Assembly: GCF_003172895.1 (NCBI RefSeq)
Contig: NZ_QGKL01000039.1
Span: 62,001 to 126,000 of the forward strand
Length of the DNA stretch: 64,000 bases
Source: Leucothrix arctica
GTDB taxonomy: Bacteria; Pseudomonadota; Gammaproteobacteria; Thiotrichales; Thiotrichaceae
Direction: 5' to 3'
A program made the position numbers and the translations under genes. Shown piece after piece: positions 1 to 45,908 of the stretch. Numbering within the stretch: position 1 is the stretch's first letter; every line of letters begins with the position of its first letter. The notes beneath the pieces were generated by a model that saw nothing but the letters and a program-made list of their open reading frames with translations, was not told the DNA's origin and searched no databases.

Positions 1-1400
1 CGAACCCTCACTTTGATGAGTTATATGCGATCTTAAATGGTGAGGTCGGTCTAGTTGAAGCGACCTTGCAGCACCTACTGATCAATCATTTAGAAGATGA
101 GCAGCCAGATGTTTTAGGGATCACCGTGCCTTTCCCCGGCAATATGCTGGGCGCATTACAAATGGCGCGTGCCTGTCGTGAGCACTCACCGAACACTCGC
201 ATTGTGTTAGGTGGTGGCTATGTTAATACCGAGCTGCGCAGCTTAAGAGACCCACGTATTTTTGAGTTTGTGGATTACATTATTTTGGATGATGGCGAGC
301 AGCCGCTGTTAACGCTGTTTGATCATCTTAAAAACGATACACCAACAGCAAACTTACACCGCACTTTCTTCCTAGAAAACGGACAAGTGCAGTACCAACG
401 TCAGAGTGACTTACCCGATATTCCACACGGCGAAATCGGTACGCCTGTTTACCAAGGCTTGCCATTAGAATCGTATTTGTCGCTGTGTGAAATGCTTAAC
501 CCAATGCACCGGATCTGGAGCGATGGCCGTTGGAATAAACTGACGATGGCGCATGGTTGTTATTGGACGCAGTGCAGTTTTTGCGATATCGGTTTGGATT
601 ATATTGGTCGATACGATGAAGCAGGCGCAGATATTATTGTTGAGCGCATGGAAAAGCTGATTGCTGAAACGGGTCAAACAGGTTTCCATTTTGTTGATGA
701 AGCCGCACCGCCAAAAGTTATGTTTGCGATGGCCAAAAAGATCATCGAAAAAGGCCTGACAGTCACGTGGTGGGGCAATATTCGTTTTGAAAAGACCTTT
801 ACCCCTGAGCGTTGTCAGCTGCTTGCAGACTCTGGTTGTGTAGCGATTTCAGGAGGCTTGGAAGTAGCGTCTGATCGTTTGCTCAAGTTAATGAAAAAGG
901 GAGTGACCGTCGAGCAAGTAGCGCGTGTGACCAAGGCATTTTCAGATGCAGGTATCTTGGTGCATGCTTATTTGATGTATGGATTCCCATCGCAAACCGA
1001 GCAAGAAACTGTTGAGTCATTAGAGTATGTGCGTCAGTTGATGAAGAATGAATGTATCCATTCGGCCTATTGGCATCGTTTCTCTGCAACGATTCACAGT
1101 CCTGTCGGGCAAAAACCTGAAGAATACGGCGTGACGCTATTACCGCCAGATGATGCACCGTTTGCCAATAATGATATTGAGTTTGTTGACCCTGTAAAAG
1201 CGAATCATGAGTTGATGGGGAAGGGCTTGAAGAAGGCGTTGTATAACTATATGCACAAGCTTGGTTTTGAACAACCTGTGACGTTTTGGTTTGATAAAAA
1301 ACTGGCGAAGCCAAAAACACCTGCTGACTTTATTGAGAAGGCGTTAGCTAACGTACCAAAAGAACGCAAGGTCATACCGATACAACAGAAAGCACAGTAA
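1..1400 (+). CDS. B12-binding-type radical SAM protein (5' end outside window)
   Basis: The frame is open to the left edge, so the true start lies upstream and the N-terminus is missing. The visible part begins inside a Rossmann-like cobalamin-binding type domain (a VLGITVPFP strand and a GGGYVNT loop). It continues into a radical SAM barrel whose cluster motif is GCYWTQCSFCD, spaced Cys-x4-Cys-x2-Cys (codons near 555-580) rather than the textbook Cys-x3-Cys-x2-Cys. The family generates a 5'-deoxyadenosyl radical from SAM, often for methylation or ring chemistry; the substrate here cannot be told. The C-terminus (about 60 residues) is Lys-rich. The base-off DxHxxG cobalamin motif is not in the visible part and may lie upstream, so cobalamin binding is inferred from family layout only. 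Confidence 0.85.
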   Translation, partial: NPHFDELYAILNGEVGLVEATLQHLLINHLEDEQPDVLGITVPFPGNMLGALQMARACREHSPNTRIVLGGGYVNTELRSLRDPRIFEFVDYIILDDGEQPLLTLFDHLKNDTPTANLHRTFFLENGQVQYQRQSDLPDIPHGEIGTPVYQGLPLESYLSLCEMLNPMHRIWSDGRWNKLTMAHGCYWTQCSFCDIGLDYIGRYDEAGADIIVERMEKLIAETGQTGFHFVDEAAPPKVMFAMAKKIIEKGLTVTWWGNIRFEKTFTPERCQLLADSGCVAISGGLEVASDRLLKLMKKGVTVEQVARVTKAFSDAGILVHAYLMYGFPSQTEQETVESLEYVRQLMKNECIHSAYWHRFSATIHSPVGQKPEEYGVTLLPPDDAPFANNDIEFVDPVKANHELMGKGLKKALYNYMHKLGFEQPVTFWFDKKLAKPKTPADFIEKALANVPKERKVIPIQQKAQ

Positions 1401-1422
1401 AACAGCGGTACTGGCGACTTTA

Positions 1423-1440
1423 TTCTATACTTTTATAGAA
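1423..1440. repeat. inverted repeat upstream of secreted protein gene
   Basis: Perfect 7-bp arms TTCTATA and TATAGAA separated by CTTT. It overlaps a TATACT hexamer (1426-1431), so it could be an operator-like site over a promoter. There is no T-run, so a terminator for the radical SAM gene is unlikely. Function is inference. Confidence 0.3.
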
Positions 1441-1457
1441 TATAGAAGGAGTCAAAT

Positions 1458-2090
1458 ATGAAGTTACACATTCCTCAAGTAGCCTTGCTAATTAGTCTAT
1501 TAGGCGCGAGCTTGCCCGCTCACGCTACCAGTAGCGCTTACGCTGATTTTTACATTCCTTATAAGCAGGTGCAGAGCGATTATACTTGCTTGAATCGCCA
1601 AACGATGGAGGCCGTTTTCGGTATCCCGCTGGCGAGTATTGTGAAAGGCGTTTTTGCAGAAACTAGAACCTACCACCAGTCTATGGTCGGGCCGGGTACT
1701 TACCAAAATATCAATCTGCTGGCTAATGAAACAACCGTACTAGACCCAGTACTGAACTTTGATCGCTTTAATGAGAGTGAAGTGTTTGATTACTCGTTTA
1801 CTCTCGATCTAGTAGCACTGAATACGGAAAACGGTGGTAGTGGAGCAGGACGACAAAAGACCATCGATACTGCCAAGCTAGCGATTATCGCCATAATAAA
1901 AACAGCTGAACTAACCCATAAGGAAGGCAAGTTTCGTGTGTGGATTAACTTTGAAAACTTGCCACTAGCGAATAATTTAGCCGGCTCGGTAGTGCACTCA
2001 GGTGGAACTGATTGGCCAAGTTGGCCATATACTGCATCTAGTCCTGTTTATCAGCAATATCTGAGTGAGGCGATTCACGAAGATTGTTAA
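1458..2090 (+). CDS. secreted protein of unknown function
   Basis: A 210-residue protein with a clear Sec signal peptide (about residues 1-23, ending ASLPAHA). The ATG is preceded by a strong Shine-Dalgarno AAGGAG seven bases upstream, which fixes the start. The mature protein has only two obvious cysteines, one near residue 44 and one as the very last residue (EDC-stop), which could form a disulfide in the periplasm. I recognise no family. The gene stands alone between the radical SAM gene and the hsdM gene, about 57 bp after the former. A 7-bp inverted repeat lies in the upstream gap. Confidence 0.75.
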   Translation: MKLHIPQVALLISLLGASLPAHATSSAYADFYIPYKQVQSDYTCLNRQTMEAVFGIPLASIVKGVFAETRTYHQSMVGPGTYQNINLLANETTVLDPVLNFDRFNESEVFDYSFTLDLVALNTENGGSGAGRQKTIDTAKLAIIAIIKTAELTHKEGKFRVWINFENLPLANNLAGSVVHSGGTDWPSWPYTASSPVYQQYLSEAIHEDC

Positions 2091-43290: not shown

Positions 43291-43318
43291 AAAAAGCGGC
43301 CTTTGGGTCGCTTTTTTT
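43291..43318 (+). terminator. rho-independent terminator of the atp operon
   Basis: Stem of five A plus GCGGCC paired with GGTCGC plus five T (one G-U pair), loop TTTG, ending in seven T. It lies 24 bp after the atpC stop. Confidence 0.88.
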
Positions 43319-43520: not shown

Positions 43521-44486
43521 ATGAAAATCAAACATCAACTCTCGGTTGCAACTTTGGTGATGGCTGGTGTCTTCGCTACAGGTTGCTCTCAGCAAGTTGT
43601 AGAAGGCGGCTCACAAGTTGCTGGTGGCGCACAAGTAGCTGGTGGTCAGCAAGTAGCTGGTGGTCAGCAAGTAGCTGGTGGCGCACAGGTAGCTGGTGGT
43701 CAGCAAGTAGCTGGTGGTCAGCAAGTAGCTGGTGGTCAGCAAGTAGCTGGTGGCGAGCAAGTAGCTGGTGGTCAGCAAGTAGCTGGTGGTCAGCAAGTAG
43801 CTGGTGGTCAGCAAGCAGCTGGTGGTCAGCAAGTAGCTGATACTCAAAACACTGTTACTGTTCCTCCTGCTCCAGTAATGGTTGAGCCTAAGCCAGTAAT
43901 GGTTAAGCCTAAGCCTGTTGTTAGATCGGCGGGTAATTGTCACGGTCATGCTCCAACTAAGTTGAGCAAGACTGTACGTCATTGTCACAAAAACCCAACT
44001 GGTAAGCATTACCAGAAAGGTAAGACAATGTCTAAGCCTGCAGTTAGAACTGTAACTCGTGTTGTAGAGAAGAAAGTATACGTACCAAAAGTTGTATACA
44101 AGCAAGTACCTAAGATTGTTTACAAAGAGAAAGTTGTATACAAGCCGGTATATGTTAAGACTCCTATGAAGGCTGCACCTAAGAAAGCTGCTCCTACTAA
44201 TCGCTGGTGTCATAGTCATCCTGCTAATAGCATGACTAAGAGTGTTAGTCATTGTCACAAGTATAACCAAAGAAACCACAGCCATTCTTACGGCGCTAAG
44301 AAAGCAGCTCCAGCTCCACGCTATGTTGCTCCTAAGCCAGCGTATGTTGCTCCAGCTACGAAGGCAGTAGATGTATTTGCTCTTCAGACTAAGCTGAAAG
44401 CTAAAGGTTACTACAAAGGCCCAATCGACGGCGTTGTAGGCAAAGGTACTCGTGCAGCTCTAAACCAGTTCATGCAGAACCGTTAA
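43521..44486 (+). CDS. hexapeptide-repeat, Cys/His-rich putative lipoprotein with peptidoglycan-binding domain
   Basis: From the ATG at 43521 (AAAGGA eight bases upstream) the protein has 321 residues. The N-terminus is a lipoprotein signal ending FATGC, with Cys22 the likely lipidated residue. Residues 31-108 are thirteen tandem hexapeptides close to QQVAGG. Then come a Pro/Lys linker, a motif GNCHGHA...TKLSKTVRHCHK (139-157), a basic Val-Tyr-Lys-rich stretch (180-215), a second copy CHSHP...TKSVSHCHK (230-247), and a C-terminal PG_binding_1-like domain (283-321, LQTKLKAKGYYKGPIDGVVG). The doubled CHxH/HCH motif suggests metal or heme binding; that is inference. The protein is probably envelope-anchored at both ends. 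No described family recognised for the whole. Confidence 0.8.
   Translation: MKIKHQLSVATLVMAGVFATGCSQQVVEGGSQVAGGAQVAGGQQVAGGQQVAGGAQVAGGQQVAGGQQVAGGQQVAGGEQVAGGQQVAGGQQVAGGQQAAGGQQVADTQNTVTVPPAPVMVEPKPVMVKPKPVVRSAGNCHGHAPTKLSKTVRHCHKNPTGKHYQKGKTMSKPAVRTVTRVVEKKVYVPKVVYKQVPKIVYKEKVVYKPVYVKTPMKAAPKKAAPTNRWCHSHPANSMTKSVSHCHKYNQRNHSHSYGAKKAAPAPRYVAPKPAYVAPATKAVDVFALQTKLKAKGYYKGPIDGVVGKGTRAALNQFMQNR
43611..43844 (+). repeat. thirteen 18-bp tandem repeats within the lipoprotein gene
   Basis: In-frame 18-bp units close to CAGCAAGTAGCTGGTGGT, 234 bp in all, encoding QQVAGG with Ser, Ala or Glu at the first position in some copies and a degenerate final copy. High identity at DNA level implies recent expansion and possible copy-number variation between strains. 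Confidence 0.95.
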
Positions 44487-44533: not shown

Positions 44534-44572
44534 AAAGTGGGATTGAGGGCTAACTTCAATCCCATTTTTTTT
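44534..44572 (+). terminator. rho-independent terminator after the repeat lipoprotein
   Basis: Stem with core TGGGATTGA/TCAATCCCA, extended by A-T and one G-U pair, followed by eight T. A second small hairpin (ACACATT/AATGTGT, 44494-44511) precedes it. Confidence 0.85.
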
Positions 44573-44660: not shown

Positions 44661-45908
44661 ATGGATAAGAAAATAAAGAGTTGCATCATTAACGGTATTC
44701 TACTGATTGCTATGGTGTTCGGTGCAACAGCAGATGCATCCGTATGGAAAGCAAAAAATACTTGGGATGAGCGTTGGGAAAACAACTATCGAGCCTGGGT
44801 AACCCGTTACTGGAACGAAGAGTTTTTCATGGATGAGAAAAAACCTTTGTACTACAAATTTGAACATGATTGTGCTGATGCTGTTTACGCTATGCGTTTA
44901 ATATTTGCATATGAGCACAGGCTGCCTTTTGTTATGAGTAATCCTTCTAAAAAAGGAAAATTCATTAGTAACAGAAGTACTAGATGGGACAAGCTTCCAG
45001 AGTCAAAGCGTGTTCGCAAATTCATGGATTATGTGGCTAACGTTGGAAGTACTGTGTCTCTTAAAAAAGATACTTATCCAGTAGCTATGAGTGATATTAA
45101 ACCTGGTGATGTATACGTCGCTCCCGGTGTTCACTCTTATACAATTGTTGATATTACTGATGCTGGTGTAGCAGAGGTGGTTTATTCAACAACTCCTAAG
45201 GCAGCTAGATTTTTGGACCGTATTGAGTCCTTTCCTTTCTATGTACCTGAGGATATGAAGAACTTTAGTGATGGCTATCGTCGGTTTATTCAGCCTCAAA
45301 ACATGACGAAAGCGATAAAGGATCAGCCAGGATATAGTATAGAGCAATTTACAATTGCTAAGTCTGTTAAGCAGAACTATGTACGATTCACTGATATTTT
45401 ATCCAGTGCATTAGGTAAGCGCAAAGAAACGGCTTCGGAGAAATCATTACGTTTAATGATAGCTTTATGCCAGTACGCCAATGACCGAAGTGTTTATGTT
45501 TACGATGCTCTTTGGTATTTACAGAAGATCCGTAAAGGTGGCAGGCAGTGCATGAATCGTTTTGAGTACGATAGTTACTCTACACCATCACGCGACAGAC
45601 GTTTAAAAGCGTTCTTTAATGCTATTGGTGAACATCATGTGAAGACCAAAGGACAGTCTCCTAATAGCCAAGCCCAGCAGTGGACTAATACGTTGTTTTC
45701 TCAAACAGATCCTACGCCAGCACAAAAGAAGCAGATAAATAATTTTTGTATGGTGCAGATGAGTTTAGGTGAAAATTACTTTATGCCATTACGCGAATTG
45801 CGAAAAAATATTTTTGCAGGAACTGTTTCATCAAACCCTAATGCACCATTAGAGTATCGCTGGGGCATTGTGCCAAAGCCTTATCAGTCGTCTTGTAAAA
45901 CATATTAA
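44661..45908 (+). CDS. secreted protein with NlpC/P60-like (papain-fold) N-terminal half
   Basis: A 415-residue protein with a signal peptide (about 1-27, ending ADAS). The segment FEHDCADAVYAMRLIFAYEH places a Cys (71) at the start of a helix, and GVHSYTIVDI (His158) follows a DIKPGDVYVA strand. This order, D-Cys-A-helix then Pro-Gly-Asp strand then His, is that of NlpC/P60 and CHAP cysteine peptidases or amidases that cut peptidoglycan. The assignment is inference. The C-terminal 240 residues are helical, with scattered Cys, and match nothing I know. It follows the repeat lipoprotein, which has a peptidoglycan-binding domain, so a shared envelope role is plausible. Confidence 0.65.
   Translation: MDKKIKSCIINGILLIAMVFGATADASVWKAKNTWDERWENNYRAWVTRYWNEEFFMDEKKPLYYKFEHDCADAVYAMRLIFAYEHRLPFVMSNPSKKGKFISNRSTRWDKLPESKRVRKFMDYVANVGSTVSLKKDTYPVAMSDIKPGDVYVAPGVHSYTIVDITDAGVAEVVYSTTPKAARFLDRIESFPFYVPEDMKNFSDGYRRFIQPQNMTKAIKDQPGYSIEQFTIAKSVKQNYVRFTDILSSALGKRKETASEKSLRLMIALCQYANDRSVYVYDALWYLQKIRKGGRQCMNRFEYDSYSTPSRDRRLKAFFNAIGEHHVKTKGQSPNSQAQQWTNTLFSQTDPTPAQKKQINNFCMVQMSLGENYFMPLRELRKNIFAGTVSSNPNAPLEYRWGIVPKPYQSSCKTY

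Follow-up and report, generated by a model that had tools for sequence, protein, structure and literature searches.

A lipoprotein of Leucothrix arctica with two copies of a histidine module bearing alternative cysteine pairs, encoded beside a predicted cell-wall hydrolase

L. arctica is a filamentous bacterium of the sea, and the window analysed here is a 64,000-nucleotide stretch of its genome (contig NZ_QGKL01000039.1, positions 62,001 to 126,000 of the forward strand). One of its genes encodes a lipoprotein with two copies of a small extracytoplasmic histidine module on which no Pfam or NCBIfam model scored over its cut-off. Among the module copies collected from related genomes, two different cysteine pairs are nearly mutually exclusive around a largely constant set of histidines, and the lipoprotein gene is commonly followed by a DUF4846-like gene whose product is predicted to be a cell-wall hydrolase. 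The reading that we favour, at just short of an even chance, is that the protein is a tether or scaffold between the outer membrane and the wall, with disulfide-held His clusters and a grip on peptidoglycan, that works beside this predicted enzyme. The module offers a natural experiment in disulfide exchange, its gene order ties it to a predicted wall hydrolase and, if its histidines bind metal, it would add a novel type of metal site in the periplasm.

Layout of the lipoprotein

From the N- to the C-terminus, the protein consists of a signal peptide, hexapeptide repeats, a Pro/Lys linker and a CHGH...HCHK segment, followed by a Val-Tyr-Lys stretch and by a CHSH...HCHK segment that an Ala/Pro linker joins to a PG_binding_1 match. 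The features of the gene and its surroundings are as follows.

43521-44486 (+): lipoprotein gene, 321 aa (ORF translation; orthologues at the same place in relatives)
43521..43586 (+): signal peptide to lipobox Cys22 (FATGC, Ser at +2; pattern match)
43611..43826 (+): twelve xQxxGG hexapeptides, an 18-bp tandem repeat (copy number differs among relatives)
43938..44015 (+): first His module, with Cys140/155 and a reduced third His pair (leave-out profile E 1.3e-6)
44043..44162 (+): basic Val-Tyr-Lys linker (from the translation; least conserved part against Leucothrix pacifica, 57% identity)
44208..44297 (+): second His module, with Cys230/245 and all three HxH pairs (leave-out profile E 5.5e-17)
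44370..44471 (+): PG_binding_1 segment cut short to profile positions 4-37 of 57 (Pfam E 7e-7)
43291..43316 (+): terminator-like hairpin and U-run after atpC (-15.2 kcal/mol, z -4.5; missed by the pattern scan)
44534..44568 (+): terminator-like hairpin and U-run after the lipoprotein gene (-20.9 kcal/mol, z -5.4; also in the pattern scan)
44661..45908 (+): conserved DUF4846-like neighbour, 415 aa (below the Pfam cut-off; invariant Cys71, GD 149-150 and His158)

Much of this layout had been described in an earlier note made from the letters alone. The lipidated cysteine that it named corresponds, by pattern, to Cys22 of a bacterial lipobox, and the basic Val-Tyr-Lys stretch is present in the translation. 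It had counted thirteen hexapeptides; the repeat stands, but the strict xQxxGG units number 12 (xQVAGG in 11 of them, QQAAGG in the other), with degenerate VVEGG and QQVAD units at their ends, and TRF reports an 18-bp unit x 12.6 (score 371). The doubled motif, said to start with CHxH and to end with TKxVxHCHK in both copies, is also there, except that copy 1 ends in SKTVRHCHK. The PG_binding_1-like tail was recovered as a C-terminal match to PF01471 over the gathering score (29.8 bits, cut-off 23), though the protein ends after 34 of the 57 profile positions, and because of this short span we treat wall binding as putative. The same short form terminates the proteins of many relatives. The strong promoter claimed for the gene was not borne out: its candidate, TTGAAT-17-TATACT, scores 9 of 12, and there were 5 promoter-like sites compared with 3.2 (sd 1.9) in shuffles.

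The closest named match to the lipoprotein is from L. pacifica, with whose orthologue it shares an identical first 24 aa; repeat and module numbers differ among orthologues. The lipoprotein is under purifying selection. Counted as uncorrected changes per site against the L. pacifica orthologue, pN and pS were 0.09 and 1.10 in module 2, 0.19 and 0.65 in module 1, 0.08 and 0.40 in the wall-binding end and 0.33 and 0.50 in the Val-Tyr-Lys linker.

Two other proteins of the L. arctica genome are built of repeats and a PG_binding_1 domain. The first (L010:1873-3570 (+), contig C25) is a 565-aa lipoprotein that shares its QVAGG-type repeats with the window lipoprotein and has PG_binding_1 at full length (47.4 bits), but in which no His module was found; N-termini like its own occur in other Leucothrix genomes. 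The second (L013:2316-3707 (-), contig C39) is a 463-aa secreted protein with PAxYxTV-type repeats and PG_binding_1 at its end.

The histidine module and its distribution

The CHxH...HCH segment is part of a module of ~36 residues, xHxHP-A-[N or IPxC]-xTxSxxHxHK...HxHxY[SG]x, whose cysteines we name C1 (in CHxH), C2 (in PxC), C3 (in HCH) and C4 (in YxC). Module 1 of the window has Cys140 and Cys155 with His 141, 143, 154, 156 and 163, and module 2 has Cys230 and Cys245 with His 231, 233, 244, 246, 253 and 255. The doubled motif has relatives, as the earlier note had proposed to find out: from loci of several searches and 40 further fetched regions, 226 copies (223 distinct) were collected in 96 ORFs, a collection that is not exhaustive, since two of the searches contributed only some of their matches. 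A profile of 31 rows was used after removal of five (both window copies, one from L. pacifica, one from locus L015 and the copy in the L. arctica A2M described below), with two copies from an SH3 protein of the same genome still inside it. Over the six frames of the window it found copy 2 (E 5.5e-17) and copy 1 (E 1.3e-6), the next best match having an E-value of 0.27. The doubled module in the window lipoprotein is not a chance match.

The module was matched in 51 of 63 genomes of the family Thiotrichaceae and in 8 of 8 genera. In a sample of the class, 4 of 369 genomes matched, three of them in the family (L. arctica included) and one outside it by a partial match; the genomes without a match were not broken down by family. 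In a sample of the phylum, the single match among 398 genomes was L. arctica itself. Other phyla were covered by a peptide-pattern scan, which distant copies would escape. The match outside the family (G181, L081) is partial, lies in a 715-aa frame and was read as spurious; its copy is nevertheless counted among the 223 distinct modules and among the 41 modules without Cys discussed below. The module seems largely confined to one bacterial family.

Between one and six modules occur per ORF, separated by basic or Pro-rich linkers, and their hosts are lipoproteins with or without a wall-binding end, SH3-domain proteins and alpha-2-macroglobulins (A2Ms). When the 96 ORFs were sorted by crude patterns, the lipobox pattern being a loose one, 50 combined a lipobox with a KxxGxYxG-like motif, 24 showed just the lipobox, 3 just the motif and 16 neither, the other 3 being A2Ms. 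One host in the L. arctica genome is a secreted SH3_3 protein (L011:2877-4127 (-), contig C37; E 9.4e-13) with five His modules, the first of which has a C2-C4 Cys pair and the other four no Cys.

A comparison of the module with PDB chains gave no match at E up to 10. Beside HxsA (see below), the only family overlap was a weak one with the urease accessory protein UreE (12.9 vs 361 bits, E 0.07, residues 181-259). An AlphaFold model of module 2 with the wall-binding end was poor (pLDDT 60.3, pTM 0.21); it places strands at residues 4-6 and 17-19, beside C1 and C3, and was not counted as evidence. In the parts of the literature that our searches covered, we saw nothing on this module or these lipoproteins, or on peptidoglycan-binding domains in A2M bait regions.

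Gene neighbourhood and the DUF4846-like neighbour

The gene order in the window is atpC, the lipoprotein gene, the conserved 415-aa ORF, glmU and glmS. Synteny was counted in 27 relative loci (L043-L069), leaving out a Clostridium locus (L070) matched over residues 276-320 only. The 415-aa ORF lies downstream in 20 of the 27, being cut by the locus end in two of these (L049 and L059), and atpC lies upstream in 16, all of which also have the 415-aa ORF. The 7 loci without the neighbour include L062, which has no sequence downstream of the gene; other module lipoproteins without it are those of L051, L060 and L067 and, next to other genes, L057, L061 and L063. In L069, where the 12-kb locus showed no atp or glm gene, the lipoprotein gene and the 415-aa ORF stay adjacent; the ORFs before the pair are, by look, what we take to be dnaK-, dnaJ- and dapB-like genes. 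For L066 and L068, there is too little upstream sequence to judge the context.

Three further observations concern these loci. The lipoproteins of L051, L060 and L067 are paralogues that carry the module and lie at another housekeeping locus, next to genes that by look are aroQ-accB-accC-like. L068 has two tandem module lipoproteins (629-1928 (+)) directly before the DUF4846-like gene. L048 is titled Aquificaceae and has the atp-lipoprotein-glm order of Leucothrix and Cocleimonas, with an AtpD piece that is 87% identical; it was kept in the count and is probably a mislabelled bin.

The neighbour of the window lipoprotein matches DUF4846 below the cut-off (28.9 vs 37 bits), and all 19 aligned members match this family at E up to 0.01. 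Cys71, G149-D150 and His158 occur in this order and are invariant in 19 of 19. A published study suggests that DUF4846 might be an NlpC/P60-like wall enzyme, based on its kept GD motif (PMC10318531). We predict from these residues that the neighbour is a papain-like cell-wall hydrolase of the NlpC/P60 type. In a structural model of the neighbour (pLDDT 64), Cys71 stands at a helix start and His158 at a strand start, both in parts of low confidence. With this model, Foldseek gave no match at E<=0.001, VIA-align matched mostly residues 244-407, and the proteins listed by both programs were mostly helical, with none recognised as papain-like.

Outer-membrane lipoproteins can serve wall enzymes as activators or positioners, as NlpI does for MepS and LpoA and LpoB do for penicillin-binding proteins. 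The window lipoprotein could likewise activate or position a peptidoglycan enzyme, with the DUF4846-like neighbour as its client, a reading that is compatible with the tether or scaffold and that we consider possible, if on the unlikely side. It is favoured by the adjacency of the two genes in 20 of 27 loci, which persists in L069 where no atp or glm gene was found nearby. However, the lipoprotein gene has a terminator-like hairpin before it and another after it, so that a transcript shared with the neighbour is not evident and separate transcription units are likely, and paralogues of the lipoprotein occur without the neighbour.

Cysteine pairs and conserved histidines

The cysteines of the module come in pairs. 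Of the 223 distinct modules, 21 have C1 together with C3, 2 have C1 without C3 and 200 have neither; C2 occurs with C4 in 160, C4 occurs without C2 in 2, and both are missing from 61. The two pairs are nearly mutually exclusive, with a single module (L039) having both. The number of cysteines is even in 219 of the 223 (none in 41, two in 177, four in 1); two modules have one and two have three. Neither the last loop of the module nor the three residues before C1 were found to hold any other Cys. The two C1-only modules (L111, L168) may be paired too, because each has a further Cys a few residues before the module. Because related copies are taken as separate in these counts, Fisher values for them are not probabilities. 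In a thinned set of 46 less similar modules, the counts (both/mixed/neither) were 7/0/39 for C1-C3 and 26/1/19 for C2-C4, and a first collection of 72 copies, gathered by an HxH...HxH pattern, gave 21/0/51 and 47/0/25 with no exceptions.

The six histidines are kept in 225, 225, 226, 226, 216 and 226 of 226 aligned copies, figures that, like the pair counts that follow, are inflated since the copies were picked by a profile that rewards His. All three HxH pairs are present in 213 of the 223 modules overall: in 160 of 160 of the C2-C4 type, in 40 of the 41 without Cys and in 14 of the 23 with C1. Copy 1 of the window has also lost the third HxH pair. The earlier note had seen the Cys and His together as possible metal ligands and had named homologues without conserved Cys and His as evidence against this. 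By this standard the cysteines are not supported as conserved ligands, with C1 in 23 and C3 in 21 of the 223 modules and gain or loss in pairs, and the histidines are conserved. Cysteines gained and lost in pairs point to disulfides, and two alternative disulfide staples that would hold a largely constant His cluster fit these sequences better than Cys metal ligands do. The window protein has the rarer pair (C1-C3) and belongs to a type in which the third His pair is often incomplete. The histidines of the module are plausible metal ligands, although the poorer retention of their third pair in this type speaks against it.

Proposed function

The earlier note had suggested a link between the outer membrane and the cell wall, which we keep as the simplest reading of a lipobox combined with a peptidoglycan-binding-like end. 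The lipid anchor would place the lipoprotein in the outer membrane, a location that we assume from the Ser at +2 by the Lol rule, and the flexible QVAGG linker would extend it into the periplasm. There it would display two small modules with five or six His each and one predicted disulfide each (Cys140-Cys155 and Cys230-Cys245), while its last ~35 residues would grip peptidoglycan. The His clusters would probably be sites for a divalent metal, whose binding would stiffen or gate the module, and the whole tether or scaffold would work alongside the predicted wall hydrolase of the adjacent gene.

The module might instead be purely structural, a disulfide-stapled, His-rich spacer without metal that sets the length or stiffness of an outer-membrane/wall tether. 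The varying number of modules per ORF, their basic or Pro-rich linkers and the differing repeat and module numbers among orthologues agree with this. We nevertheless think it unlikely, as the strongest conservation is that of the histidines and not of the staple, and a mere spacer need not retain paired His over eight genera. That Cys and His together form the zinc or copper site of a periplasmic metal buffer, with the Cys as reduced ligands, is improbable: Cys does stand beside His in both CHxH and HCH, C3 accompanies C1 in 21 of 23 modules and the third His pair is often reduced in this type, as if Cys replaced His, but C1 and C3 are missing from 200 of 223 modules, most of which have the other coupled pair at different places instead, 40 of the 41 modules without Cys keep their His pairs, each of the two C1-only modules has a further Cys near it, and the periplasm is oxidising.

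Alpha-2-macroglobulins with a module or wall-binding segment

The L. arctica genome also carries the module in an A2M (L114, contig C33:364373-369493, minus strand, a 2029-aa frame). It was found with the lipoprotein as query at E 2.4e-11 and with the module profile, of which this copy was one row, at E 4.9e-13. Its MG2, A2M and bMG10 matches exceed their cut-offs and, as in Type I A2Ms, it has a thioester motif, CTEQ; A2M_BRD (22.6 vs 22.7 bits) and TED (19.7 vs 22) fall just short of theirs. The insert, which contains one CHTH...HCHK module and VEKRVYK and VDVFAQQSKIK stretches like those of the lipoprotein, comes after the A2M_BRD match (640-776) and ahead of the A2M domain (944-1031), just before RKNFNE. 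By comparison with the E. coli A2M, this would be the position of the bait region, the loop with which such a protease trap senses proteases; we infer the exact mapping, the PDB alignment of the L. arctica A2M not covering the insert stretch.

A close A2M (E up to 1e-30) occurs in 12 of 63 family genomes, L. arctica included. Ten distinct A2Ms cover the bait position, all with CxEQ kept; three have the module (L114, L119, L124) and four have a wall-binding segment (L118, L119, L120, L124). The Pfam scan covered seven of these A2Ms (all except L116, L121 and L122), and three of the four segments are over its cut-off, L118 scoring 20.4 vs 23 bits. By eye, only a remnant of the wall-binding segment is left in L117 and the L. 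arctica protein, L116 has no more than an ERRVY stretch that is doubtful, and there is nothing in L115, L121 and L122. In a 33-row tree the inserts did not group: that of L. arctica fell with Leucothrix lipoproteins (80/95 support), L119 with L124, and L120 and L118 elsewhere. The tree requires 4 changes and has long branches in three of the five A2M rows; a single origin of the inserts may still hold.

Since the bait position of bacterial A2Ms can hold a wall-binding-like segment, the location and release of the trap become testable. We raise, as an improbable speculation, that the family shuffles a mobile cassette of His module and wall grip between the tether and the A2M bait loop, so that a bait loop gripping peptidoglycan would keep the periplasmic trap parked on the wall until it is released and armed, when the bait is cut or when wall or metal is lost. 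If true, the A2M trap would be a sensor of wall integrity and proteases, and the swap of two alternative disulfides in one module, with L039 having both pairs, would be an observable staple exchange in evolution.

Comparison with known systems

Two candidate relationships were rejected. The lipoprotein matches the His-Xaa-Ser repeat protein HxsA (TIGR03979) at 36.2 bits over residues 231-319, under the curated cut-off of 121.65 bits; the wall-binding end alone gives 38.8 bits and the module alone no match, and the radical SAM partner HxsB has no match over its cut-off in the L. arctica genome (best 27.1 bits, cut-off 370). Of the heme binding that the earlier note had entertained, the c-type was dropped together with kinship to c-type cytochromes, the translation of the lipoprotein containing no CxxCH.

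Lipoproteins and secreted proteins with PG_binding_1 (PF01471) share with the window protein a signal peptide, a low-complexity linker and a C-terminal match over the gathering score, but the window protein differs in a domain cut to ~35 residues and in His modules unmatched in the Pfam and NCBIfam scans. NlpI with MepS, and LpoA and LpoB, which we take to be outer-membrane lipoprotein partners of wall enzymes, resemble it in the flexible linker and in a lipoprotein beside a predicted wall enzyme; for the window protein, gene order is what suggests the partner relation. The L. arctica A2M shares MG2, A2M, bMG10 and CTEQ with the Type I A2M of E. coli (YfhM) and differs from it at the bait position, which holds a lipoprotein-like module and a wall-binding-like remnant and, in some relatives, a fuller segment.
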